Shown here one piece after another: positions 1,297-15,473 of a stretch of DNA of 24,475 nt. Where the stretch lies: IMG/VR virus record IMGVR_UViG_3300025806_000219, positions 1 through 24,475 of that record, one strand, 5' to 3'. The translations under genes were made by a program, and so were the position numbers. Position 1 is the first letter of the stretch. Every line of letters starts with the position of its first letter. Under the pieces are notes generated by a model that did not search any database, was not told the DNA's origin, and saw only the letters and a list, made by a program, of their open reading frames with translations. This DNA is from a virus.

Positions 1297-1325
1297 TTGA
1301 CAGAACTTAAAAACTCTGTTATACT
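1297..1325 (+). promoter_or_regulatory. Rightward sigma70 promoter for the packaging/structural genes
   Basis: TTGACA (1297-1302), 17-bp spacer, TATACT (1320-1325): perfect -35, five of six at -10, and ideal spacing. Transcription would start near 1332 and give a leader of about 130 bases before the small terminase candidate. The leader is AT-rich, then carries tandem CCTTAGGT (1384-1391, 1393-1400), the palindrome TAGGTACCTA (1396-1405) and a small hairpin (1420-1439). Confidence 0.8.
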
Positions 1326-1419
1326 AAACCATAAGTTAAAGAGAAAGAATATTTAGAAATTACTAAATTATCTTTTAAAAATACCTTAGGTGCCTTAGGT
1401 ACCTATAGCATTAGGATAA

Positions 1420-1439
1420 CCCCGCTCAAACCTACGGGG
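1420..1439 (+). promoter_or_regulatory. Leader hairpin just before the small terminase ribosome site
   Basis: CCCCG (1420-1424) and CGGGG (1435-1439) form a 5-bp GC-rich stem with a 10-base loop, ending four bases before AGGGAG (1444-1449). There is no following T-run, so it is not a terminator. It could affect translation start or message stability. Weak evidence. Confidence 0.3.
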
Positions 1440-1461
1440 CCTTAGGGAGTATGTGTATTTT

Positions 1462-1839
1462 ATGGATGTTGTTAAAAAAACGGGCAGGCCTAAGAAAACT
1501 GAGGCGCAAAAGAAATTACCCGCTAAACCAAGAACTGATCGAAGCATCATGGAAGCGTACAGGCAGCGCCTGTTAAACAGCCCTTCTAGCGAAAAAGTTA
1601 TAAGTAAAGTGTTTCAAACTGCGTTAGATGATGACCACGCCCATCAAGCAGCGTGTATGAAAATGATAATGGACAGAGTTCTGCCTACCTCTGGTTTTTC
1701 AGAGGCTGTTTCAGGCGGCACTCAGAAAAGCGCAATACAGATAAACATATCTGGTGTTCCCGGTGTGGAGCTATCAGCCCCCAAGGAGCCCCTTGAAGGG
1801 GCCTTTAAAACTATAGACGAGGACTCCAAAGATGATTAA
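1462..1839 (+). CDS. Putative terminase small subunit, 125 aa
   Basis: The position directly before the large terminase operon, the length and the basic N-terminus (MDVVKKTGRPKKTEAQKK) fit a DNA-packaging recognition subunit. The middle part (residues about 28-85) is predicted helical, with AYRQRLLNSP and AACMKMIMDRVLP, a pattern seen in small-terminase-like proteins of marine podoviruses. The C-terminus is acidic. ATG 1462 is preferred over the in-frame GTG at 1453, because AGGGAG (1444-1449) is only three bases from the GTG but 12 from the ATG. The role would be to bind the phage DNA and load the large terminase. Assignment rests mainly on context, and another DNA-binding function remains possible. 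Confidence 0.6.
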   Translation: MDVVKKTGRPKKTEAQKKLPAKPRTDRSIMEAYRQRLLNSPSSEKVISKVFQTALDDDHAHQAACMKMIMDRVLPTSGFSEAVSGGTQKSAIQINISGVPGVELSAPKEPLEGAFKTIDEDSKDD

Positions 1840-1918
1840 AAAATGCAGCTATGGCACAACTAAACCGCCTAAGCCTACAACTAAGCCCAAAAAGAAAAAA
1901 AAGTTAAAGGGTTACTAG
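1832..1918 (+). CDS. Tiny lysine/proline-rich protein, 28 aa
   Basis: ATG 1832 overlaps the end of the small terminase candidate (stop at 1837-1839) and has GAGGA (1819-1823) eight bases upstream. The product starts MIKKCSYGTTKPPKPTTK and ends in a run of lysines plus LKGY; about 40% of residues are Lys. Its stop TAG (1916-1918) overlaps the GTG start of the next gene. Very basic short peptides of this kind may bind nucleic acid, but no function is known. The good ribosome site and stop/start chaining on both sides favour a real gene. The short length leaves doubt. Confidence 0.55.
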   Translation: MIKKCSYGTTKPPKPTTKPKKKKKLKGY

Positions 1919-2085
1919 TGAAAGGCGTAAAACACTACAAAAAAAATGGAACTTTACACACTGGTGGGACGCATAAGATGCCCAACGGTGAATTGCATTC
2001 TGGCAAAACACACGGCAAGACAAGCGTAAAGTTGTTTCATTTTAAAGACTTGTCAGAGACTGCTAAAAAGAACGCAAAAAAATAA
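1918..2085 (+). CDS. Small conserved phage protein, 55 aa
   Basis: A GTG start at 1918 overlaps the previous stop (TAGTG) and has AAAGGG (1906-1911) six bases upstream. The stop TAA (2083-2085) overlaps the ATG of the large terminase (TAATG). The product contains KMPNGELHSGKTHGKTS followed by LFHFKDLSETAKK, a combination I recognise from small hypothetical proteins that recur in environmental phage genomes. It is basic and rich in Gly, His and Lys, without a metal-binding pattern that I can identify. Function is unknown. Its fixed place between the terminase genes suggests a packaging or virion link. Translation of the terminase probably depends on this upstream reading, because the terminase has only a weak ribosome site of its own. 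Confidence 0.8.
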   Translation: MKGVKHYKKNGTLHTGGTHKMPNGELHSGKTHGKTSVKLFHFKDLSETAKKNAKK

Positions 2086-3335
2086 TGGAATTAGACATAA
2101 AGCTGTTGCCTTGGCAACAAGAAGTCTGGGAAGACCCTACACGCTTTAAGGTAATAGCGGCAGGCCGTAGGTGTGGTAAGTCTAGGTACGCAGCTTACAG
2201 GTTAATGGTAGAAGCCCTAAGCAGCACTAGGGGAGAGTTCTGGTACTGTGCCCCTACGCAAGCACAGGCCCGTGACATTATGTGGAAAAGCCTCTTAGAA
2301 ATTGGAGGTGATCTTGTAGAAAAAGCACACATAAACAACCTCCAAATAACCCTAGTCAACGGCTCTATGATTTCGTTAAAGGGGGGTGACAGGCCTGACA
2401 CCATGCGAGGTGTGTCCCTAAAGTTTCTTGTTATGGACGAAATAGCGCAAATTAAACCAGACGTATGGCAAGAGATTCTACGACCAGCGTTAGCTGACCT
2501 TAAAGGTGAAGCAGTGTTTATAGGTACACCTGAGGGTCGTAATCACTTTTATGACCTCTATAACTATGCAGACTCAGAAAAAGACCCTGATTGGGCAGCT
2601 TGGCATTTTACAAGTTTTGACAACCCAATCCTAGACCCCAAAGAAATAGAAGCAGCCAGACGCTCTATGAGTACCTATGCTTTTAACAAAGAATTTAAGG
2701 CATCCTTTAGTGCTCAAGGTTCTGAGATATTTAAAGAAACATGGATAAAGTTTGACGATGAAGCCCCTAGTGGCGGTGACTACTACATTGCCATAGATTT
2801 AGCAGGCTTTGAAACTTTAGGTAAAAAGAAAAAAAGCCGACTTGATGACACAGCTATAAGTATAGTAAACGTAGGTCAAGATGGTCATTGGTGGATTAAA
2901 GACATTATTAATGGGCGCTGGGACTTAAAAGAAACGGCAGAAGTTATCTTTAAAGCCGTTAAAAAGTACAGGCCCATAGCCGTAGGCATAGAAAGAGGGA
3001 TAGCTCAACAGGCCGTACTGAGCCCCCTAAGCGATCTTATGCGTAGAGAGAATAGGTACTTTAACGTACAGACCCTTACGCATGGTAACCAAAAGAAATC
3101 TGACCGAATTATCTGGGCTCTACAAGGTCGAATGGAACACGGTAGGGTATCTTTAGCAGAGGGCGATTGGAACGCTAAGTTTCTAGATCAGTTGTTTCAG
3201 TTCCCCTCGCATTTAGTAAAAGATGACCTAATAGATTCTCTTAGCTACATTGACCAGTTAGCCACTGTACCTTATTGGAATTTAGAAGAATTAGACGATG
3301 AATACGAATCCCTAGACATAACCTCAGGATATTAA
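2085..3335 (+). CDS. Terminase large subunit (packaging ATPase/nuclease), 416 aa
   Basis: The motor that pumps phage DNA into the procapsid and cuts the concatemer. The N-terminal ATPase domain shows Walker A GRRCGKS (residues 27-33), a CAPT segment (55-58), and Walker B FLVMDE (114-119) with the catalytic Glu. The C-terminal RNase-H-like nuclease has the first acidic residue in IAIDLAG (D238), a following DDTAISIV strand, and the acidic cluster KDDLIDSLSY (D380, D381, D384). The length is typical of compact large terminases. It starts inside the stop of the 55-aa gene (TAATG) with only a weak ribosome site, so it is probably coupled. The portal gene follows after three bases. All key residues are present. 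Confidence 0.97.
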   Translation: MELDIKLLPWQQEVWEDPTRFKVIAAGRRCGKSRYAAYRLMVEALSSTRGEFWYCAPTQAQARDIMWKSLLEIGGDLVEKAHINNLQITLVNGSMISLKGGDRPDTMRGVSLKFLVMDEIAQIKPDVWQEILRPALADLKGEAVFIGTPEGRNHFYDLYNYADSEKDPDWAAWHFTSFDNPILDPKEIEAARRSMSTYAFNKEFKASFSAQGSEIFKETWIKFDDEAPSGGDYYIAIDLAGFETLGKKKKSRLDDTAISIVNVGQDGHWWIKDIINGRWDLKETAEVIFKAVKKYRPIAVGIERGIAQQAVLSPLSDLMRRENRYFNVQTLTHGNQKKSDRIIWALQGRMEHGRVSLAEGDWNAKFLDQLFQFPSHLVKDDLIDSLSYIDQLATVPYWNLEELDDEYESLDITSGY

Positions 3336-3338
3336 ATT

Positions 3339-5543
3339 ATGGATGTTGAAATAATAGAAGAAAACTCCGAACTAGACTCTCGTATGTTACAAGGGGATAG
3401 CTCTCTTAAAGGGTACGTTATTAACTTGTGCCAAGAATGGCAAGAGTACGTAGAGTCTAATCACTTTAGTCAGTGGGATGAGTTTTACAGAATTTGGCGA
3501 GGTATTTGGGCCGAGTCAGATAAAACTAGACTTATGGAAAGGTCTCGCATAGTTACGCCAGCATCTCAACAAGCCGTAGAATCTGCTGTTTGTGAAATAG
3601 AAGAGGCTACTTTTGGTCAAGGCTATTACTTTGACATAAGAAATGATAACTTAGAGCTTACTAAGTTAAAGGCTAACCAAACCCCTATGGCTCCTATGGC
3701 CCCTATGGCTCCAGAAGGCCCCCAAATGCCTCCTATGGGCAATCCTCAACCTATGGCCCCTATGGGTCAACCCCCTATGCCACAACAGCCTCAACAGGCC
3801 TCTAAGAGCTTAGAAGACATAATTAAAGATGATATGTCTTATTTAAGACGCCAACTAGAAGAAGATATGAGAAAACAGAGGGTTAGGGCCTCTACCGCTG
3901 AAGTCCTTATTAATGCTGCGGTCTGGGGCACAGGCATAGCTGAGGTTGTAATAGGGGAAGAAAACGAAGTTACCCCCGCTTCTGAAGAGGTTATGGGCGG
4001 GGAAATGCAGGCTTATGGTGTTAATATAACGCCTAGGACTGTAGTTAAAATGAAACCTGTCTTAATAAAAAACTTTAGAATAGACCCTGTGGCTACCTCT
4101 GTTAAAGATGCCCACGGAGTAGCCATACAAGAATACGTCCCTATGCACAGCGTTAAGGCTTTACAACGGTCAGGTGTCTATATCAAAGGCGCTATAGGCT
4201 CTGCTAGTGTAGACACAGATTTAGAGCCTAATCCTGATATTGACGTAGACCCTAACACAGACGGAAAAGTAGAGCTTTTAAAATATTTTGGATTAGTCCC
4301 TAAGTCTATGTTAACTTTAGCTCAAAAAGCACAAGAAAACAATGCAGAAGAATTAGATTCTTTGTCTGACGCTCTAGACTCTCAAGATGACATGGACGAT
4401 ATAGAAGATGAAGGAGAGCTTGTCGAAGCCATTGTTATTATAGCTAACGGAGAGTTTCTTTTAAAAGCAGAAGAAAACCCCTACATGATGAAAGATAGGC
4501 CTATTGTGGCTTTTCAGTGGGACATAGTTCCGGGCTTGTTTTACGGACGGGGCGTAGTAGAAAAAGCCTATAACTCTCAAAAAGCCTTAGACGCAGAAAT
4601 TAGAGCCAGAATAGACGCCTTAGCACTCACTATACACCCTATGTTAGCTATGGATTCTACCAAAATCCCCAGAGGCCACAAGCCTCAAATAGTTCCCGGA
4701 AAGATGATTTTGACCAACGGTAACCCCGCTGAGACACTTATGCCTTTCAAATTTGGTGATGTAAGTCAAATTTCCTTTGCCCAAGCTGGTGAACTTCAAA
4801 AGATGGTTCAACAGGCCACAGGTTCTGTGGATTCTTCAGGCATAGGCGGGGCTATTAACGGGGAAGCCACAGCAGCAGGCATAAGTATGTCGCTAGGGGC
4901 TATTATTAAAAGACAAAAAAGAACTCTAATTAATTTCCAAGAAAACTTTTGGATACCCTTTGTAGAAAAATGTGCTTGGCGTCTTATGCAATTTAGCCCA
5001 GAGCTTTACCCAATTAAAGATTATTCTTTTGTAGCCACAAGTACCCTAGGTATTATGGCAAGGGAATATCAAGTATCACAGCTTGTTCAGCTTCTGCAAA
5101 CCATGAGCCCCGAAAGCCCTATGTACCCAAAACTTGTAGAATCTATTGTAGAGTCTATGAATATTTCTAATCGAGATGAATTAGTGGAAATACTGCAAAA
5201 GGCTTCAGAGCCTAATCCTGAAGCACAAGAAATGCAAAAACAACATCATCAAATGGAAATGGATAATCAAGCGGCAGTGACTGATTACGCCAAAGCTCAG
5301 GCAGAGGAAAGCAGAGCTAGAGCTTCTAAGTACATTGGAGAAGCGCAGTTAGCTCCTCAAGAACTAGAGATTAAAAAGATTGACGCTATAACTAAAAATC
5401 TTCAACCGGGGGCTGATGACGATAACGAGTTTTCTAAGAGAATTAAAGTTGCAGAAGTTGCCTTACGCGAAAGAGATTTAGACATTAGAGAAAAACAAGT
5501 TCCTGTACAAAATCAACCACAACCTCCCGGAGGTACTATATAA
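3339..5543 (+). CDS. Portal protein, 734 aa
   Basis: The dodecameric head vertex through which DNA enters and leaves. It is recognised by position after the large terminase, by length, and by portal-like blocks: an N-terminal helical wing (EWQEYVESNHFSQWDEFYRI) and the core YGRGVVEKAYNSQKALDAEI with RARIDALALTIHPM, seen in podovirus portals of marine phages and P22-type viruses. Residues 116-153 form a proline/methionine-rich insertion with PMA triplets (tandem repeat 3684-3710), probably a flexible loop. The C-terminal 130 residues are rich in Gln, Glu and Lys and likely coiled-coil, ending QPPGGTI. AGGA (3326-3329) precedes the ATG by nine bases. The last codons double as the strong GGAGG site of the next gene, whose ATG overlaps the stop. 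Confidence 0.93.
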   Translation: MDVEIIEENSELDSRMLQGDSSLKGYVINLCQEWQEYVESNHFSQWDEFYRIWRGIWAESDKTRLMERSRIVTPASQQAVESAVCEIEEATFGQGYYFDIRNDNLELTKLKANQTPMAPMAPMAPEGPQMPPMGNPQPMAPMGQPPMPQQPQQASKSLEDIIKDDMSYLRRQLEEDMRKQRVRASTAEVLINAAVWGTGIAEVVIGEENEVTPASEEVMGGEMQAYGVNITPRTVVKMKPVLIKNFRIDPVATSVKDAHGVAIQEYVPMHSVKALQRSGVYIKGAIGSASVDTDLEPNPDIDVDPNTDGKVELLKYFGLVPKSMLTLAQKAQENNAEELDSLSDALDSQDDMDDIEDEGELVEAIVIIANGEFLLKAEENPYMMKDRPIVAFQWDIVPGLFYGRGVVEKAYNSQKALDAEIRARIDALALTIHPMLAMDSTKIPRGHKPQIVPGKMILTNGNPAETLMPFKFGDVSQISFAQAGELQKMVQQATGSVDSSGIGGAINGEATAAGISMSLGAIIKRQKRTLINFQENFWIPFVEKCAWRLMQFSPELYPIKDYSFVATSTLGIMAREYQVSQLVQLLQTMSPESPMYPKLVESIVESMNISNRDELVEILQKASEPNPEAQEMQKQHHQMEMDNQAAVTDYAKAQAEESRARASKYIGEAQLAPQELEIKKIDAITKNLQPGADDDNEFSKRIKVAEVALRERDLDIREKQVPVQNQPQPPGGTI
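3684..3710 (+). repeat. 9-bp tandem repeat encoding Pro-Met-Ala in portal
   Basis: Three copies of a CCT-ATG-GCY unit encode PMAPMAPMA at the start of the portal's Pro/Met-rich insertion. The CCTATGG core is also a motif of the non-coding region, but here it follows from codon choice. Confidence 0.8.
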
Positions 5544-7126: not shown

Positions 7127-8086
7127 ATGGCTACATTTGAACCCGTTACACCACAGGTAACCGCTGCCAAAGCGTCAGGATTTATTCCTGAAATTTGGTC
7201 AGACGAAATTAAGGCTAGTTACACCAATAACCTTGTCCTTGCGTCTAAAGTTAAAACAATGTCAATGAAGGGCAAAAAGGGTGACACAATTCATATCCCT
7301 ATCCCTGATCGTGGCACAGCTTCAGCTAAAGTTGCAGAAACCGCTGTAACGCTGATTGCAGGCCAAACAAGCGATTTGCAAATCAACATTGACCAGCACT
7401 TTGAGTATTCCCGCATGATTGAAGACATTGCAGGGACTCAGGCTCTTAGCTCTTTGCGTTCTTTTTACACAGAAGACGCTGGCTTTGCAATGGCTAAGAA
7501 TGTTGACACCTCGTTGTTTAATTTAGGCGTAGGCCTTAAAGCGGGTAACGCTCTTAGCCTTGACCCAACAGATAAGGCTAACTGGGTAAGCCCTCAGGCG
7601 TTTAAAGTAGGAGCGGCTGGAGCTTTGTCTGCTTACAACGGAACAACAGCATCCCTTGCTTTTGATGACGTTTCTTTGCGTGACGGTCTCCAAACGCTTG
7701 ACGATGCAAACGTACCAATGACTGGTCGTTTCTTTGTTATTCCGCCTGCTCTTGTAAACCAAATTCGCGGCTTAACTCGTTTTAGTTCTAGCGACTTTGT
7801 TAACTTTAAGCAGACCTCAACGGGTGAAATTGGTAACCTGTACGGTGTACCTATCTTTGTGTCTACTAACGTGCCTTCTGTTGCAAATACAGGAACAGGT
7901 ACTCCTAGTGAGCGCATGACTCTCTTGGCTCACAAAGACGCTTACGTTCTTGCCGAGCAAGTAGGTATCCGCACACAGACTCAGTACAAGCAGGAATTTC
8001 TGTCTACACTGATGACTGCTGACCGCCTGTACGGGCGTCAAGTGTATCGTGCCGAAGCGGCTGTCGTAATCGCAGTAGCTCCTTAA
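7127..8086 (+). CDS. Major capsid (coat) protein, 319 aa
   Basis: Forms the icosahedral shell. The features are those of the roughly 320-aa coat proteins of marine podoviruses: an N-terminal arm with GFIPEIWSDEIKASY, then SMKGKKGDTIHIPIPDRGTA (extended loop with GDTI), HFEYSRMIEDIAGTQAL with SLRSFYTEDAGFAMAKNVD (spine-helix-like), and a C-terminal RLYGRQVYRAEAAVVIAVAP. The HK97 fold is assumed from the family. A strong AAGGAG site (7109 onward) precedes the ATG, codon use is more regular than in neighbours, and a terminator follows 20 bases after the stop, all consistent with high expression. It lies directly after its scaffold. Confidence 0.95.
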   Translation: MATFEPVTPQVTAAKASGFIPEIWSDEIKASYTNNLVLASKVKTMSMKGKKGDTIHIPIPDRGTASAKVAETAVTLIAGQTSDLQINIDQHFEYSRMIEDIAGTQALSSLRSFYTEDAGFAMAKNVDTSLFNLGVGLKAGNALSLDPTDKANWVSPQAFKVGAAGALSAYNGTTASLAFDDVSLRDGLQTLDDANVPMTGRFFVIPPALVNQIRGLTRFSSSDFVNFKQTSTGEIGNLYGVPIFVSTNVPSVANTGTGTPSERMTLLAHKDAYVLAEQVGIRTQTQYKQEFLSTLMTADRLYGRQVYRAEAAVVIAVAP

Positions 8087-8106: not shown

Positions 8107-8142
8107 AGGCCCCTAGGATTTCTTAGGGGCCTTACTTATTTT
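8107..8142 (+). terminator. Rho-independent terminator after the coat gene
   Basis: AGGCCCCTA (8107-8115) pairs perfectly with TAGGGGCCT (8124-8132). With one G-U and one G-C pair the stem extends inward to 11 bp with a four-base loop. It is followed by a modest T-rich tail (TTACTTATTTT). It closes the scaffold/coat unit and probably lets some transcripts through to the fibre gene. Confidence 0.8.
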
Positions 8143-8154
8143 AGGAGTTTTTGT

Positions 8155-10074
8155 ATGACAACGCTAGTTACTAAAAACAGTTCAACGGCTTTAGCAGCGC
8201 CTGCCGATGGCAGCCTATCTTTAGGTGAGTTGGCTGTAAATGTTGCTGACAAAAAACTCTATGTAGGGGATTCTGCTGGAGACCCCTCTCTCTTAGGTTT
8301 TGGTCGATCTCCCTCCGATGTATTTTTAGACAAACCAGAAGGCGAACCCATAGTAATGACTTGGGTTGGCAACAGTAATGTTGGCGGCTTTATGACAAAA
8401 GAGCCTGACGTTCCTTTAGTTTATAATCCCAATGTGTATGTTTGGCAAGCACTTGCAAGCGACACACTCGTAACTGACATAAAGTGGCGCGTAGTAGACC
8501 ACAGCTCTACGCCCTATGGTAACCCTCGTCCAATAGGGGAAGATTCTTCTGGCGTTAATGACGGGCTAAGAATGGTTGGGTACTGTGGAGGCCAAAGAGG
8601 TTCCCCCGCAATCGCTGCCGCTGATGCTATGCAAAAAATGTACGGGGGTATTGTTTTTTTAATTATGACTTATCAGAGTGGAGCACCAAGTGCTTTAGTT
8701 CATCCCGGCCTTTCCGATGGAAAAGGAGATGTCCTTGCCAATACTGATTCCTTGTACGATATTAGTGGCTCAATAACTCAAAATAACAATATGTGGTTTT
8801 GGCACTCAACAGCAGTTAACAACGCTCTTACGTCTATACGCGCAGGGTCTCCTGAGACTACTACTGACGGACTCACTACTCCAGTAATCCCCGCATATTC
8901 CAATATAACTTATGTTGACTTTGTAGGCGATACCTTGGGACAAGGAGACGCTCTTTACACATCCAGCCTTTCTGGTTCTGTTTGGACAAACAAAGAAGCT
9001 GAAGATAATTATGTAGCCAACATGACAGCTTTTGTACGTGCTGCCGAAGGGACTACGCTAGACCCTAGCCGTACTAGCCCCACTACTAACGGCAATGTAG
9101 TTGCAATTTCGGGAGGAGGTTGGGCTAAAAACCAATACACTCACTGGTTCTCTATGGATATGCCAGCGGGTTCTCAGTTATCGGCTGGTGTAGGGCAAGC
9201 GTGGCTAGATTTTGACGGACTTGCTTTATACTCTAGAGTAGCCTCTAATTTATACCGAAGCATTGCAGTTCCTGACGGACAGGTAACACCGTATGTCACG
9301 GGAAGTTCAGGAGATAGGGTACAGAATGTTTATGGCACAGAGGACGGTATTCATCCTAATACAGTTTCTAATATAGCCATAGGAAAATATGCTACTCAAG
9401 TTTGTGTTGAAACTCCTAATTCTGCTCCAAGGTCTGTAGACACAACCCTAAACGCTTTTACTGAAAATGTAGATGGGGCTGGTTTTAATCTAACTGGAGT
9501 AGGCGATCTGGGGGCTACAGGTACGTCTACTCTTACTAATTTAATAGCTACCGGTACATCTAAACTTACTGCTGCGTCAGGAACAATTAACAACACTGCC
9601 TATACGACAACAGATCAAGCCTTTGTTTTTGCTGACTCTCTAGGGAATTTAAGCCAAGGCCCAAGATCAACTACGGGGGTTATGCAAAACTCAATAACAA
9701 CTGTTAATGACGGTGTGACAGATGTGTTTACCATTTTAATGGCTACGACAGACACCGAAATGTGGGCAGGCACAATAACGATTGAGTCCCGTGGGCCTTA
9801 CTTAGGGGCTTCCAACGAATATGGAAGCGTAGTCCACTACAACGTGTGTGTTTCTGTTCTTAGGTTAGGTGGATTTCCTGATGTAATCTCTTCAACTATA
9901 AGCGACCCTTACGGAGGCCCAAGTACAGCAACAACCCTTGTTCCTCATGCTACTTTACAAGTAGCCACCGGAGTAGCAACTCAGTTAGTTTTTCAATTGA
10001 AAGGCGGCAGCTCAACCGCTGGCACTGTTAATCATAGAGTAACATTCACGTACAACGATATTTCAACGATTTAA
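8155..10074 (+). CDS. Tail fibre/spike with SGNH-esterase-like domain, 639 aa
   Basis: Likely receptor-binding protein that removes acyl groups from host surface glycans. Residues 1-50 match the short virion-attachment domain of many fibres (LSLGELAVNVADKKLYVGDS). The central part shows SGNH hydrolase-like blocks: WVGNSNVGG (nucleophile Ser 74, resembling GQSN of sialate O-acetylesterase-type enzymes), LGQGDAL (263-267, comparable to the QGE-D block) and DGIHPN (D397, H400, the catalytic Asp/His block). After residue 420 a beta-rich C-terminus follows, with repeated TGTSTLTNLIATGTSKLTAA and a sandwich-like end, probably for trimerisation or binding. AGGAG precedes the ATG by seven bases. It is unusual in lying straight after the coat gene, away from the tail genes. 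Enzyme class is an inference from motifs. Confidence 0.75.
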   Translation: MTTLVTKNSSTALAAPADGSLSLGELAVNVADKKLYVGDSAGDPSLLGFGRSPSDVFLDKPEGEPIVMTWVGNSNVGGFMTKEPDVPLVYNPNVYVWQALASDTLVTDIKWRVVDHSSTPYGNPRPIGEDSSGVNDGLRMVGYCGGQRGSPAIAAADAMQKMYGGIVFLIMTYQSGAPSALVHPGLSDGKGDVLANTDSLYDISGSITQNNNMWFWHSTAVNNALTSIRAGSPETTTDGLTTPVIPAYSNITYVDFVGDTLGQGDALYTSSLSGSVWTNKEAEDNYVANMTAFVRAAEGTTLDPSRTSPTTNGNVVAISGGGWAKNQYTHWFSMDMPAGSQLSAGVGQAWLDFDGLALYSRVASNLYRSIAVPDGQVTPYVTGSSGDRVQNVYGTEDGIHPNTVSNIAIGKYATQVCVETPNSAPRSVDTTLNAFTENVDGAGFNLTGVGDLGATGTSTLTNLIATGTSKLTAASGTINNTAYTTTDQAFVFADSLGNLSQGPRSTTGVMQNSITTVNDGVTDVFTILMATTDTEMWAGTITIESRGPYLGASNEYGSVVHYNVCVSVLRLGGFPDVISSTISDPYGGPSTATTLVPHATLQVATGVATQLVFQLKGGSSTAGTVNHRVTFTYNDISTI

Positions 10075-10087
10075 AGGGAGCAACGCC

Positions 10088-10348
10088 TTGAGTAAAACAA
10101 CGCCATCAAAAGGTAAAGCTAAAGTTAAGATAACGTCTAGCGGTAAAAAAGTTAGTTACGGGCAAGCTGGTAAAGCTAAGGGCGGGGGTGCCAGAGTTAA
10201 ACCCGGAACGTCTAAAGGTGATTCTTATTGCGCCAGAAGCCTTGGGATAAAAAGGGGCTTGTCTAAAGACAAAGCAAATGACCCTAACACGCCTAACAAT
10301 CTGTCACGCAAACGCTGGAAGTGTTCTGGCGCCAAATCAACGAGGTAA
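10088..10348 (+). CDS. Small basic phage protein, 86 aa (TTG start)
   Basis: No ATG fits. TTG at 10088 has AGGGAG (10075-10080) seven bases upstream and follows the fibre stop closely. The product is very basic, beginning MSKTTPSKGKAKVKITSSGK, with a C-terminal block DSYCARSLGIKRG, then DPNTPNNLSRKRWKCSGAKS. That block is shared by a widespread small phage protein family, possibly the one catalogued as DUF6321; the number is from memory. Two cysteines lie in the block. Function is unknown, and the position beside holin genes is common. Its stop overlaps the ribosome site of the holin gene. Confidence 0.8.
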   Translation: MSKTTPSKGKAKVKITSSGKKVSYGQAGKAKGGGARVKPGTSKGDSYCARSLGIKRGLSKDKANDPNTPNNLSRKRWKCSGAKSTR

Positions 10349-10352
10349 GTAG

Positions 10353-10763
10353 ATGAGCATCGCAACAGCCATTGTCGGGACTCTAGTACAACCAGTGTCT
10401 GACCTCCTGTCTGAGTTTATCGTAGACAAAGACAAGCAGGCAGAAATATCGTACAAGATAGCTACGATGGCGGAGCAGAACGCACACGCGCAAGTGTTAG
10501 CACAGCTAGAGATTAACAAAGCTGAGGCTTCTAGCGAATCCCTCTTTAAAGGGGGCTGGCGTCCCGCCTGTGGTTGGCTAACTGTATTTGCACTAGGTAT
10601 TAACTATGTAGTTATACCGATGGGAGGGCCGATTATAGAGGCTTACACACCTATAAACATGGAACCCCTTGACATGACGGTAATGCTTCCTCTGCTAATG
10701 GGTATGCTAGGCCTTACGGGCGCAAGAACACTAGAGAAAACCAAAGGGGTGGCAGCGCGATAA
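10353..10763 (+). CDS. Holin, three-TM type, 136 aa
   Basis: Forms pores in the inner membrane that trigger lysis. The N-terminal half is an amphipathic/coiled region (DKDKQAEISYKIATMAEQ). The C-terminal half holds GGWRPACGWLTVFALGIN with the following VVIPMG (about residues 66-92, hydrophobic), a short linker with MEPLDMTV, and a second hydrophobic stretch MLPLLMGMLGLTGARTLEK (about 110-128). The GGWRP-x-x-GW signature and the GLTGARTLEK end are typical of the GTA-type three-TM holin family (PF11351, from memory). GAGG lies seven bases before the ATG. The following 72-aa gene is a second small membrane protein, so the two may act as a holin pair. Confidence 0.85.
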   Translation: MSIATAIVGTLVQPVSDLLSEFIVDKDKQAEISYKIATMAEQNAHAQVLAQLEINKAEASSESLFKGGWRPACGWLTVFALGINYVVIPMGGPIIEAYTPINMEPLDMTVMLPLLMGMLGLTGARTLEKTKGVAAR

Positions 10764-10777
10764 GCGTTAACTTGTTT

Positions 10778-10996
10778 ATGTCTACTAGTCAATTACATAA
10801 AACTGTTGAAATTGCAGTGGGGAGCTCTCAACCAGTAGTTTACGGAGTTGCTGCTGGTACTATTTTTGGTCTACAGTTTAACGAGTGGATTATGATAGGG
10901 TCTGCTGTTTTACTTATTTTAAATTTAGGTTTATCAGTTAGTCGCATTATTACACTTTTTACAGCAAGAAATAAAAAAACCGATAAAGGGGATTAA
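10778..10996 (+). CDS. Small two-TM membrane protein, possible second holin, 72 aa
   Basis: A TTG at 10772 is in frame, but ATG 10778 is the simpler choice; neither has a strong ribosome site. The protein has two hydrophobic segments (about residues 19-34 and 37-61, the latter WIMIGSAVLLILNLGLSVSR) separated by FNE, and a basic, charged tail (ARNKKTDKGD). This is the general plan of class II holins or small antiholins. The position between the first holin and a lipoprotein supports a lysis-cassette role. No family-level match is claimed. Alternatives are a superinfection-exclusion or pinholin-like peptide. It ends one base before the next ATG. Confidence 0.65.
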   Translation: MSTSQLHKTVEIAVGSSQPVVYGVAAGTIFGLQFNEWIMIGSAVLLILNLGLSVSRIITLFTARNKKTDKGD

Positions 10997-10997
10997 T

Positions 10998-11618
10998 ATG
11001 AAATATATAGTAGCAATATGTTTTTGTGTAGCACTAATAGGTTGTGGAAGCCAAGCCCGTAAAGATTATTACAATGCAGTAGGAACTGCAAGCACAGCTC
11101 AAAGTAACACTCAAATAGCGAGGTTTCAAGCCCTTAGCCAATTAGCAGCGGCTAACAAAAATGACTCAGGCGCAGCAGTTGCAGCAGTTATGGCAATTGC
11201 AATGATGCGGGAAGATACAGTAAGACCTCAGTATGTAGAAAGCGAAGCTCTTTCCTACACAAAAGCTCTAGCAGCACCGCTTACAGGCGTAGCCGCATTA
11301 TTAATACAAGCTGACCTTAGCAACAAAACTAATAAGCAAAATAACGAAACAGCCCGAGCTCAGATTAACGCAAACAGCGCAGAGCAACAGGGTTTATTTG
11401 ATGCTTTTAGTTCTGATGATGGAAGCTCTGATACAACAGATTTAGCAATTAGTGGTATTATTGACGTTAGCACCACGGCCCTTGGAACAGTAGAGACCGT
11501 TGTTAAAAACAATAACGGCTTAATAGAAGACCTTTCAAATACGCTGCAACCAATCGTACCTGTAGAAATTGTACCTGTTATCGAAATTACACCTGTAATT
11601 AATTCTTCTACACAATAA
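10998..11618 (+). CDS. Phage lipoprotein of unknown function, 206 aa
   Basis: Residues 1-16 are a lipoprotein signal peptide: MKY, a hydrophobic core IVAICFCVAL and lipobox LIGC, with Cys16 the predicted lipidated residue. Gly at +2 predicts outer-membrane sorting. The mature part is alanine/asparagine-rich and helical (AVAAVMAIAMM; ALAAPLTGVAALLIQADLSN could insert in a membrane), followed by an acidic low-complexity stretch (FSSDDGSSDTTD) and a proline/valine-rich tail with PVEIVPVIEITPVI. It resembles lipoproteins placed after holins in other podoviruses. The proline-rich end could reach through peptidoglycan, so an outer-membrane spanin-like role is possible but not shown. GGGGA precedes the ATG. 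Confidence 0.7.
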   Translation: MKYIVAICFCVALIGCGSQARKDYYNAVGTASTAQSNTQIARFQALSQLAAANKNDSGAAVAAVMAIAMMREDTVRPQYVESEALSYTKALAAPLTGVAALLIQADLSNKTNKQNNETARAQINANSAEQQGLFDAFSSDDGSSDTTDLAISGIIDVSTTALGTVETVVKNNNGLIEDLSNTLQPIVPVEIVPVIEITPVINSSTQ

Positions 11619-11633
11619 CGTAAGGAATTTTAA

Positions 11634-14600
11634 ATGGCAACTAACCTGAATCAATTAGGAAACAGTTTTTTTAAAGATGTTGATGATTCTGGTTTTAATA
11701 CAGGCTCTGCTGGGGTAAATCCTGAACGTCCTGTTCAAAATACCCCTGTTTCTGTTACTCCTGAAGGTACTAGCTCTCCCTTAGCAGATTATGTTTCTAC
11801 GGGTTCTGTTTCACAACCTACAGAAACATATAGAGCAAACCCAGTTTATGGGGGCGGGACTTATGCCGTAGGAGAGGGGCCGTTACTTAGTGCCTCTCAG
11901 TCCCCTGAAATTGACAACAGCGAGGTGTGGTGGAGATACAGAAATCTTCCTATTTTTCAACAACCGGGATGGAAAGCACAGGGCCGCTCGTCAAATCAAA
12001 ATCGTTCGTATGTTAACACTATTACAGGGCAGACTTTAAGTGCTCAGGGCGCTTACGAAGAGTACGCTAAATCACCAAGGGGTATAGAAAATGCCGCCTA
12101 TAAAGCAAAAGAAAAAAAAGACAAAGAAGAATACACAGCATACCGAACCAGTACGCCCTATGGCGATTTTAGTAACTTTAATCAAAAGCAACTAAACGAG
12201 GCTTTGTCAGACCCTGAGTGGGGCTCAACAATAAGAGATATAATTAATGACCCTAGGGGTACCCCTAAAAGTTTAATGGCTTATCAAAATAGCGTGACGT
12301 ATCCGCAGCTAAATCAAGCAGCTACCCTTCCTTTAAAAGTACAACGATATGACAATAGGGGTGCCTTGTCTCCTTTGGCTAATTCTGGTTTAGACGCCCA
12401 AGGTGTAAGAGACTTAAACTCAGGGCTAAACAGCTTAACCCCAGAGCAATGGAATTATATTAGCGAATTACCTCCTGAGAATAACTTAGAAGGTATTTCT
12501 CCTGAGTTGTCCTCTTTTGCTGGGTCAGGTTTAAGTGCTCAAGACATAACTGACTTAAACACAGGATTAAACGACTTAACTTACAATGACACCACTGATT
12601 TTATTAGAGAATCTTCTGACATTTTTTGGTCTCCTGAAAGAGGAGGGGCCAGAGCTCAACAACTAGAAAAGTTATTATCAACTTCCCGCTTTCAACAGGC
12701 TTATACAGAGGGTTTACGGGCTGATCCAAATACAAACCCGCAAGAGTTTTTTAATAGTATTCACACTATGTTTTATTACTCTCCCGAAGAGTTTGCTCTG
12801 TGGAGAAACAACCCCGATAACATAGACATGGCTATACGCTTTCATGCTATGGCAGCAACAGGAGAGTTTGGCCCCGCTAATAAAAGCGGAGATGAAGAAT
12901 GGGATTCAAAAAAACACCAGCAGTTTGCGGATACTTTAGGTTTTAAACTTAGTCAAGATTTGGGCTGGGGAGAAGACGGTAAACAAGACGGCTCAATGAT
13001 AGCCACTAATTATGACGGCAAAATAAGCAAGGACGTAAACAACCCTAAGTCTGGGGGTGACTTTTGGAAAATAGGTACTCCTGAAAAAATTACAGATGGA
13101 GTTCGTAATTGGGTAGTAGATAACCCTGTCGAATCTGCAATTATTGTTGCAGCACTAGCTTTTGCTCCCCAAGTTATTGGAACATTAAGCGCTGCTGGGA
13201 CAACAGGCACAGGCCTTACTGGTGTGGTTCTTTCTGCTGGTGTTGCTCCTGCGTTTGCCCCTATGGCAGCAGCGGGTTTGTATGCAGCAGGGACTCAATT
13301 AGCTACGGGTCTAGCTTCTGGTGAAGACCTTGACGCTGATCTTCTTTTAAACGCTGTTAAAACAGGAGCTATTTCAGCATTAACTTTTGGTGCGGTACAG
13401 TGGGGTGCTGGTGAGCTTAGTTCTTTAACTAACGGTGCAATATCTGTTGAGGCAGGATATAGAATAACTGGAGTAGCTTTAGAAACGGCTAAAAACGGAG
13501 GGGACGTTGTATCAGCAGTAATTCAAGCAGGGCTAGCAGAAGGCGTTAATTTAGCTAGGGGAGCTGCTACAAACTTTGTAGGAGGATTAAGCCTAGCAAG
13601 TGCAGAAACAACTGATATGCCAGAGGGATTTGGGCCTGCTGCTGGTATGCCTACCATGACAGAAGAAATAGCTTCTGTAGGGGCAGGGCTTCCGACATCA
13701 ACTTTAGAAGACTTAGATATTTTTACAGACTATTCTCCTGATTCCCCTGTCTTGCCTAGTTCACCCGCTGTGTTTGATGACCCGAAACAACAGCTAATAG
13801 TAGATTTAGGAAACGGAACATCTGGTTACTCTACTCCCGATGGTTTTGTAGAGTTACCTCCTAGCAACACTACGCTAGACGATTTGGATATTTTTAGCGA
13901 CACTACAGATACCATTGATCTTCCCGCGCCAATAGAAACTAGAGATTACAGCGGATCAATAAACGCTGAAGACACTAGCAATATGTCTTACGATGAATTT
14001 GAGTCTTTTTCAGATAAGTTGGCTGACTCTGGTTTTCCTCTTACGGACACGGATGGAGAATACTTAGCCCCAGACGAAAACTATACGTTAAAGAATGGGG
14101 ATGAGTATTGGACTAGAACAACTGAAGTACAACCCGAAACCAGTTTTAATGAGACAGCAAACGAAAACTTTACTGGAGACCAAGGCACTCAGGGCCAAGG
14201 CACTCAAGGCCAAGGCACTCAGGGCCAAGGCACTCAGGGCCAAGGCACTCAGGGCCAAGGCACTCAGGGCCAAGGCACTCAGGGCCAAGGCACTCAGGGC
14301 CAAGGCACTGGAGGCCAAGGCACTGGAGGCCAAGGCACTGGAGGCCAAGGCACTGGGGGCGTATCTAACGCTGATTGGCAGCAAACTCTTGATGGAATAG
14401 AGGACGCAGGGCTTCCCACAGTAGACTCTACAGGCAATCCTTTGAAAAACGATGGAACAGTATACGACCTTAACAGTGACAACCAATGGGTTAAAATGGG
14501 GCCGACAGGGGGCCAAGGTTTAACTTATGCAGATGGCACCCCTATGGAACTGTCCCCAATTACAGTAGGTTCCGGTACTCCCACAGAAGCCAATAGTTTG

Positions 14601-15473
14601 TTTACCGTAGATGGGTCAGGAAATCAAGACTCCACGGGACTATACGCACAAAATGGTAAAGGGCAGTATAGTGCTGCCCCCCTAAATACCTCAGGGGGCA
14701 CTACTACCTATCCTTCTGGCACTAGTCCGAAAGCTACACAGCCTGTTACTCTTAGGATTGATGGTAAAGACACTGTAACTATAGGGGGATTCCAGCAAAC
14801 TGTTAAACCTGATACTAAAATAGTAGCGTGGTTCCTAAACGAAATGGGTAATCCTAATGCTTTAGAGGAAGTTATTGTTACTGCAAGTAAACCGGAAGGG
14901 CTTGAATTTAGATTCCCAGACGGTTCTAATCTGTGGACAATTTCTTCTTTAGCTGATTGGATAGACATGACTTACGAAGGACAAATTCCTAAAGACGTTG
15001 TTTGGGACGATAACGCGCCAACGCAGGAAGACGATGAAGAAACAGAGCCTACTTTAGAGGAAGTTAAAGTTACTGCCGATAGTATTACTCCTGAAGACCC
15101 TCAAAACATTCCTATTAACATACCTACGCCTACCCTCACAAACCCTGAGCTTAACCCCAATGGTCAACCTATGGACAATATTGTTGTCACAGCGCCTACC
15201 GTTCCCCCCACAACACCTGACCCTATAACAGTTACAACCCCTGTTGTTAACACTATAATTAACGGATTAGACGGTACAGACGGTACAGACGGTAGTTCGG
15301 GTGGACGAGGTGAAACAGGGGCCCGTGGCCCTGCTTCTGCTGACTCAGGATGGGATACAGAAAACGTCCCCCTTATGAAACGAATTAGACTTAGCTACCC
15401 TAGTCCAGCAGAACAACAACGTATGTTTCAAGCATTAAGAGCAAGACAACAACAGTCGGGGAAAAGTAAATGA
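11634..15473 (+). CDS. Large modular repeat protein, putative virion protein, 1279 aa
   Basis: No family recognised. In order: residues about 1-480 are soluble and contain a near-duplicate helical segment (SGLDAQGVRDLNSGLNSLTP and SGLSAQDITDLNTGLNDLTY). Residues 497-680 are Gly/Ala-rich and hydrophobic (AIIVAALAFAPQVIG onward), likely membrane-inserting. An acidic region carries twin LEDLDIF/LDDLDIF motifs. A module of about 40 residues occurs on both sides of a 12-copy pentapeptide array (residues 850-909). Beyond residue 970 there are TonB-box-like segments (EEVIVTA, EEVKVTA, DNIVVTA). A short collagen-like stretch (DGTDGTDG, GRGETGARGPA) precedes a basic end with RIRLSYPSPAEQQRMFQAL. Context before the adaptor gene suggests a virion or ejected protein. 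AAGGA precedes the ATG, and the stop overlaps the next start (ATGA). Confidence 0.85.
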   Translation: MATNLNQLGNSFFKDVDDSGFNTGSAGVNPERPVQNTPVSVTPEGTSSPLADYVSTGSVSQPTETYRANPVYGGGTYAVGEGPLLSASQSPEIDNSEVWWRYRNLPIFQQPGWKAQGRSSNQNRSYVNTITGQTLSAQGAYEEYAKSPRGIENAAYKAKEKKDKEEYTAYRTSTPYGDFSNFNQKQLNEALSDPEWGSTIRDIINDPRGTPKSLMAYQNSVTYPQLNQAATLPLKVQRYDNRGALSPLANSGLDAQGVRDLNSGLNSLTPEQWNYISELPPENNLEGISPELSSFAGSGLSAQDITDLNTGLNDLTYNDTTDFIRESSDIFWSPERGGARAQQLEKLLSTSRFQQAYTEGLRADPNTNPQEFFNSIHTMFYYSPEEFALWRNNPDNIDMAIRFHAMAATGEFGPANKSGDEEWDSKKHQQFADTLGFKLSQDLGWGEDGKQDGSMIATNYDGKISKDVNNPKSGGDFWKIGTPEKITDGVRNWVVDNPVESAIIVAALAFAPQVIGTLSAAGTTGTGLTGVVLSAGVAPAFAPMAAAGLYAAGTQLATGLASGEDLDADLLLNAVKTGAISALTFGAVQWGAGELSSLTNGAISVEAGYRITGVALETAKNGGDVVSAVIQAGLAEGVNLARGAATNFVGGLSLASAETTDMPEGFGPAAGMPTMTEEIASVGAGLPTSTLEDLDIFTDYSPDSPVLPSSPAVFDDPKQQLIVDLGNGTSGYSTPDGFVELPPSNTTLDDLDIFSDTTDTIDLPAPIETRDYSGSINAEDTSNMSYDEFESFSDKLADSGFPLTDTDGEYLAPDENYTLKNGDEYWTRTTEVQPETSFNETANENFTGDQGTQGQGTQGQGTQGQGTQGQGTQGQGTQGQGTQGQGTQGQGTGGQGTGGQGTGGQGTGGVSNADWQQTLDGIEDAGLPTVDSTGNPLKNDGTVYDLNSDNQWVKMGPTGGQGLTYADGTPMELSPITVGSGTPTEANSLFTVDGSGNQDSTGLYAQNGKGQYSAAPLNTSGGTTTYPSGTSPKATQPVTLRIDGKDTVTIGGFQQTVKPDTKIVAWFLNEMGNPNALEEVIVTASKPEGLEFRFPDGSNLWTISSLADWIDMTYEGQIPKDVVWDDNAPTQEDDEETEPTLEEVKVTADSITPEDPQNIPINIPTPTLTNPELNPNGQPMDNIVVTAPTVPPTTPDPITVTTPVVNTIINGLDGTDGTDGSSGGRGETGARGPASADSGWDTENVPLMKRIRLSYPSPAEQQRMFQALRARQQQSGKSK
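14181..14360 (+). repeat. 12-copy, 15-bp tandem repeat
   Basis: Exact 15-bp units without gaps: eight of type CAAGGCACTCAGGGC (the second copy has CAAGGC at its end) encoding QGTQG, then four of type CAAGGCACTGGRGGC encoding QGTGG. The period preserves the frame. The block change from TQ to TG after copy eight suggests two rounds of expansion. Low-complexity Gln/Gly/Thr probably forms a flexible or beta-aggregating spacer. Confidence 0.95.

Follow-up and report, generated by a model that had tools for sequence, protein, structure and literature searches.

A probable receptor-binding tail protein with a SASA-derived domain and a changed oxyanion signature, encoded behind the coat gene of a phage

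Tail esterases of the SASA type are an established kind of phage protein. A review attributes to the Vi phages an acetyl esterase domain that is linked to a tail-fibre gene and has the acetyl groups on the Vi capsule as its target (PMC6630733). The podovirus G7C carries on its tail the deacetylase gp63.1, the activity of which is essential for infection (PMC10743462), and which has been called an SGNH protein (PMC13123978); Klebsiella prophages often encode tail proteins with SGNH domains, two of which were active esterases (PMC13123978), and SASA matches have been tabulated for Acinetobacter phage fibres (PMC11058221). The oxyanion hole of SASA enzymes is provided by a Gln beside the catalytic Ser, which is held by the (H)QGE sequence of block III (PMC9487903). 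The Gln and the (H)QGE are described as universal in SASA and as delineating the family, and their substitution has been reported to abolish activity (PMC9487903).

The present analysis concerns a stretch of viral DNA of 24,475 nucleotides (IMG/VR record IMGVR_UViG_3300025806_000219, positions 1-24,475; hereafter the window) and, within it, the 639-aa product of one open reading frame. An earlier note had described this product as a tail fibre with a candidate glycan deacetylase. The relevant features are as follows.

7127 to 8086, + strand: major capsid protein gene, upstream neighbour (phrog_267, E=3e-46)
8107 to 8132, + strand: terminator-like hairpin 3' of the coat gene, within the flanking DNA that is conserved around the cassette
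8155 to 10074, + strand: gene of the probable receptor-binding tail protein, 639 aa (from the list of open reading frames)
8155 to 8289, + strand: N-terminal module, residues 1-45, taken as the virion attachment part (53-65% identity with L005, L006 and L030)
8326 to 9429, + strand: SASA/SGNH-derived core, residues 58-425 (residues 57-180 by homology, the remainder inferred)
8368 to 8379, + strand: block I GNSN, residues 72-75, with the nucleophile Ser74 at 8374-8376 and Asn73 in place of the SASA oxyanion Gln
8680 to 8691, + strand: block II GAPS, residues 176-179, Gly176 being aligned to the block II Gly of relatives
8902 to 8949, + strand: candidate block III, residues 250-265, NITYVDFVGDTLGQGD, without QGE; an uncertain assignment, the best place for three of four relatives at chance level
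9343 to 9360, + strand: block V DGIHPN, residues 397-402, with Asp397 and His400 (EDGIH against EDGVH in L229)
9430 to 10071, + strand: residues 426-639, the C-terminal part, for which a low-confidence model has strands and which is perhaps beta-rich
10353 to 10763, + strand: holin gene, downstream neighbour (PF11351, E=5e-17; phrog_3427, E=4e-28)

The whole protein has no match in Pfam, PHROGs or NCBIfam, and PADLOC and Rfam gave no matches either. A route to its relatives was provided by the capsid protein: this has at least 599 relatives, and the top 80 of them led to the contigs L005 and L006 (capsid proteins 83 and 87% identical, respectively). The product of the gene 3' of the capsid gene in L005 resembles the 639-aa protein in its first residues, in the core, with 31% identity, and at its end, with 36% over the 66 columns of residues 574-637.

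The gene sits between the coat and holin genes, just as the earlier note had placed it. That note had also remarked that it lies away from the tail genes; the location is not peculiar, as relatives show similar arrangements. The gene that bears the N-terminal module starts less than about 200 bases after the capsid gene in L005, L006, L007, L043, L082 and L171, and in others of the related contigs it starts about half a kb to several kb later. The holin gene is also found downstream in L005 and L006; in L229 the coat gene is followed by small genes and then by those for the SASA protein, the holin and the endolysin, and in L233 by the gene of the SASA protein and then by connector genes.

The gene is exchanged at its borders between close relatives. 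The DNA is 92% identical to that of L006 up to 8152, the ATG being at 8155, and 86% identical again from 10089, the stop codon ending at 10074. In 60-column blocks of this alignment, 60 of 60 columns agree before the start, followed by 37, 43 and 30 (the first of these blocks holds the ATG); the corresponding numbers for L005 are 56 and then 37, 32 and 23. The homology with L005 likewise stops at 8152 and resumes at 10350, and an 86-aa gene at 10088-10348 has no counterpart in L005 and is present in L006. By eye, the hairpin at 8107-8132 is identical in L006 and has one change in L005.

The protein found in the same slot of L006 has the same N-terminal module and the same genome position, and it is also an SGNH-type hydrolase. 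It matches Lipase_GDSL_2, however, belongs to a different SGNH branch (GDSN, GGND and DGVH), is 825 aa long, and its core has no significant similarity to that of the 639-aa protein (E=0.22). The C-terminus of this L006 protein (1307-3784) matches phrog_8780, a minor tail protein, with E=1e-11.

A profile of the N-terminal module matches 118 ORFs, own copies included, or 101 after merging 17 that share their last 200 residues with another; this number is not a frequency, as 80 loci were fetched with the module itself and some overlap. The module itself has a weak match to Mtd_N (E=0.007), below the cut-off of Pfam. Among 16 hand-picked module proteins, the 639-aa protein included, Pfam finds an S74 fibre chaperone in ten and a GDSL domain in one. 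Fifteen of the 16 have copies among the 118, the remaining one being that of L171, and all are encoded after a capsid gene, some of them not immediately. L122, where a text match gives GQSN and DGNH, reads as an S74-type fibre and was not counted as SGNH. The combination of a common N-terminal module with exchangeable distal domains is that of phage receptor-binding proteins. The conservation of the module and the exchangeable slot together support such a role, and we can say with good confidence that the 639-aa product is probably a receptor-binding protein; its location in the virion we infer.

Some further observations were made in the window and in related contigs. The holin gene at 10353-10763, a GTA_holin_3TM (PF11351), is adjacent to a second holin-like gene at 10772-10996 with weak matches (phrog_920, E=5e-4; T7-type holin PF10746, E=0.026, below the cut-off), and the two are followed by a gene at 10998-11618 for a protein with a lipoprotein-like start. 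A 15-bp repeat at 14180-14354 (11.7 copies, 96% matches) encodes repeats of the GQGTQ type within the 1279-aa ORF at 11634-15473, and L005 may have an array of this type too, as suggested by ORFs on its reverse strand. Nine sites resembling DnaA boxes (TTATCCACA) are located within 128 bp (957-1084), upstream of the large terminase gene (2085) and all on the minus strand, six of them exact and three with one mismatch. The whole window has 14 such sites against 5.4 expected, a number reached by none of 100 shuffles, and the array is possibly an origin dependent on the host DnaA or a DnaA-titrating array in the phage. Finally, L171, a related contig of phage-like character that is listed with a Planctomycetaceae MAG, has at 13409-14134 a 241-aa ORF resembling a class 3 lipase, with GHSLGG seen by eye.

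Turning to the descent of the core, a spaced DNA pattern for KPxGE...G[QN]SN matched 10 stretches: four belong to the own lineage or to the L005 contig, four are SASA-like (L228, L229, L230 and L233) and two are chance matches (L227 and L234). L229 and L233, the two on which Pfam was run, score 37.5 and 37.0 bits for PF03629, respectively (cut-off 24.8), and L228 and L230 are by eye near-copies of L229. The proteins of L005, L229/L230 and L233 have KPxGExI...G[QN]SN and the block II region in common with the 639-aa protein, and in L005 the agreement extends to the N-terminal module, the C-terminal residues and the genome neighbourhood. When L005, L229 and L233 are combined in a profile that excludes the 639-aa protein and is run against 4793 ORFs, that protein is matched at E=5e-10 over residues 57-180; beyond the members of the profile and two Rhodobacter phage tail spikes, the next match has E=1.7. 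With an eight-member profile, the protein is found at E=1e-7 over residues 59-178, the next match being at 0.08, and BLASTP with the core gives 1e-6 for L005, 1e-5 for L229 and 3e-4 for L233.

The two tail spikes, RcapMu gp56 and RcWaterboi gp54, are matched by the profile of the relatives with E about 1e-10. They differ from the 639-aa protein in having canonical GQSN and QGE, and their genes lie among tail genes. RcapMu gp56 joins the same profile and then matches 21 phage records, a number that counts itself and its close copies; 17 of the records are from Salmonella phages, among them Vi01, Vi II-E1 and Vi06. It is annotated as DUF303, the former name of SASA, an equivalence also seen in the Vi06 record. 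Vi01, Vi II-E1 and Vi06 thus resemble our protein in carrying SASA (PF03629/DUF303) tail or adhesion proteins, linked to it via L233/L229 and RcapMu gp56. They keep GQSN and QGE, whereas the 639-aa protein has GNSN, lacks QGE and has a different N-terminus, and a direct search with its core matches none of the three.

Other searches delimit how far this relationship can be followed. Neither the Pfam scan nor a looser search gives a PF03629 match for the 639-aa protein, and its closest relative, that of L005, matches no Pfam family. The core alone finds no relative among 50,697 phage records, and the whole protein finds there the N-terminal module only, among the matches listed (40 of 530). Peptide-pattern scans of IMG/VR with the core or the whole protein return identical or near-identical copies only, that with the C-terminal part returns own copies and the contig of L005, and that with the core of L005 returns only itself. 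No confirmed relative was found in bacterial genomes; the count of none among 294 genomes of the phylum of G002 had no positive control and is uninformative. Comparison of the 639-aa protein, L005 and their pair with bacterial SASA alignments gave no significant match, nor did profile comparison of the pair with the L006 protein (the value given above) or with G7C gp63.1 (E=0.16), to which no sequence similarity is detectable. Sequence searches of solved structures gave chance matches only. Between residues 173 and 425, the alignment with relatives is no better than with shuffles (198 as good among 1919 scored, of 2000 made), and the 639-aa protein has insertions between blocks II and III as well as beyond residue ~300. 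Judged from the profile matches, residues 57-180 very probably descend from the SASA branch of the SGNH esterases; the protein does derive from a known functional class, but it has diverged and its catalytic signature is altered.

The motifs that the earlier note had read are largely where it put them. GNSN is found at residues 72-75, with Ser74 at nucleotides 8374-8376, and DGIHPN at residues 397-402 (nucleotides 9343-9360); GQGD is present as well, at residues 262-265 (8938-8949) rather than at 264-265. They also follow the order of the SGNH blocks, the ordered trio G.SN, QG[DE] and D..H being reached by 6 of 5000 shuffles of the core. G.SN alone occurs in 1019 of these shuffles and D..H alone in 1441, so that a single motif carries little weight by itself, in contrast to the ordered set. 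Ser74 is aligned with the Ser of the PF03629 relatives within the significant stretch, as expected for block I of SGNH enzymes, and Gly176 with their block II Gly at its edge. The D..H of block V is located near the C-terminal end of the domain and is assigned through L229, where EDGIH is matched by EDGVH, followed by a common IG and Q (8 of 5000 shuffles do equally well). Block V of L233 has its best place overlapping this one at chance level (872 of 3000 shuffles), while those of L005 and RcapMu have theirs elsewhere, with chance-level scores.

The main departure from the family concerns the oxyanion hole. GQSN is present in all 10 phage relatives inspected and QGE in nine; L229, L230 and L233 have both, and L005 is the exception with QSE. 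These 10 correspond to about eight independent proteins, as the near-duplicates L230 and RcWaterboi gp54 are counted, although they were left out of the profile, and L228 is not included. In a simple text match, bacterial SASA ORFs have GQSN in 20 of 20 cases and QGE in 16 of 20, the profile that selected them having been built from G[QE]SN proteins. The 639-aa protein has GNSN, with Asn73 at the Gln position, has no QGE, and so departs from SASA in both block I and block III; the block II Trp of the relatives is absent as well. Residue 73 is encoded by AAC, two base changes away from a Gln codon, and is identical in three other assembled contigs (L001, L002 and L003, the last over 607 residues), which makes a sequencing slip unlikely; the sole protein difference among these copies is S275Y in L002. 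Ser74, Gly176, Asp397 and His400 are retained. The proposed fit to GQSN, QGE and DxxH therefore stands for the Ser and the D..H, within a SASA-descended domain, and fails for the Gln and the QGE. In the literature surveyed by title and opening of the abstract, no tail protein of the SASA or SGNH type is described whose oxyanion hole has been altered; the survey did not query this wording itself and does not prove absence.

Retained Ser, Gly, Asp and His together with altered oxyanion residues fit two readings: the active site has been rebuilt, or the enzyme is turning into a lectin. We favour the former, in which the protein would be an exchangeable receptor-binding tail protein. Its conserved N-terminus of ~45 residues would plug into the virion, as suggested by the conservation across phages, the SASA-type SGNH domain (~57-425) would contact an acetylated host surface glycan, and the C-terminal part would close the fibre. 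Ser74 with Asp397/His400 would most likely still strip O-acetyl groups at adsorption, as the tail esterases of the Vi phages and G7C do, through an oxyanion hole rebuilt with Asn73 at the SASA Gln position and without the QGE block. Taken as a whole, we consider the chances of this picture evenly balanced. Whether catalysis as such is retained is about an even call, and deacetylation by the 639-aa protein is plausible. The earlier note had proposed such removal of acetyl groups, from capsule or O-antigen, and for surface glycans it is documented in other phage tail proteins (PMC6630733, PMC10743462); what weakens it here is that the protein's own SASA oxyanion parts are changed. More tentatively, and at slightly less than even weight, SASA deacetylation via a new oxyanion hole (Asn73, no QGE lock) may occur in a lineage that alternates SASA (the 639-aa protein, L005), GDSL (L006) and other fibres in the slot behind the coat gene.

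The second possibility is that the protein is a pseudo-enzyme, namely a SASA domain that has lost its oxyanion hole and now acts only as a lectin-like, glycan-binding receptor-binding domain. The alteration of both oxyanion parts, in contrast to the phage relatives, points in this direction, as do the loss of the block II Trp, the insertions between the blocks and the fact that L005 is drifting as well, with QSE for QGE. On the other hand, Ser74, Gly176, Asp397 and His400 persist even though the second half has diverged beyond alignment, and this survival of the catalytic positions suggests selection on catalysis. We regard the loss of activity as possible, if rather doubtful.

It is also worth considering whether GQGD can serve as QGE, as the earlier note had proposed, which would make the protein a fully canonical SASA deacetylase. 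The ordered motifs and the homology to PF03629 proteins are in line with this. However, GNSN does not contain the Gln that forms the oxyanion hole (PMC9487903), and the ungapped alignment sets LGQGD, not QGD, opposite QGESD, with a match at chance level. Apart from QGD at 263-265, the protein contains no Q[GS][ED]. In the block III search, three of the four relatives peak individually at residue 249 and none beats chance; the pooled scores are matched by 778 of 5000 shuffles with four relatives and by 345 of 5000 with three, and a shorter, 12-residue version has its best place at residue 272 rather than at GQGD (814 of 5000 shuffles). The reading of GQGD as a functional block is thus not borne out, and a canonical deacetylase is improbable.

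A single-sequence model of the protein has a mean pLDDT of 30.7, too low to judge the fold or the triad, and a model of the core from a four-sequence alignment reaches a mean pLDDT of 39.1 and a pTM of 0.49, a confidence at which the Ser74-His400 geometry cannot be judged. The core model has alternating strands and helices, with a strand at residues 256-260, at a confidence too low for use. Foldseek with this model gave no match at E<=0.001 in PDB or BFVD, which is uninformative and not counter-evidence, and VIA gave a best Z of 3.7, with no SGNH hydrolase recognised in the listed rows, which is equally uninformative. As to the attachment domain and beta-rich end proposed earlier, the first ~45 residues do form a module common to related phages, whereas the beta-rich end comes from a very low-confidence model only. 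We finally consider it very improbable that the motifs are coincidental in a fibre protein with no relation to SGNH enzymes, as the missing curated-family match, the unalignable second half and the unusable structure models might suggest, in view of the profile match over an empty background, the alignment of residues 57-180 with PF03629 proteins and the match of block V to L229 close to the end of the core.

The range of acetylated surface glycans open to a phage is determined in part by SASA-type tail esterases. A natural variant in which the nucleophile and the Asp/His pair are kept and the 'universal' residues of the family are lost would represent either an alternative way of building the oxyanion hole or the beginning of a change from enzyme to lectin. 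The lineage, having the same flanks and different SGNH branches in one slot, constitutes a clean natural series for the exchange of receptor-binding enzymes.
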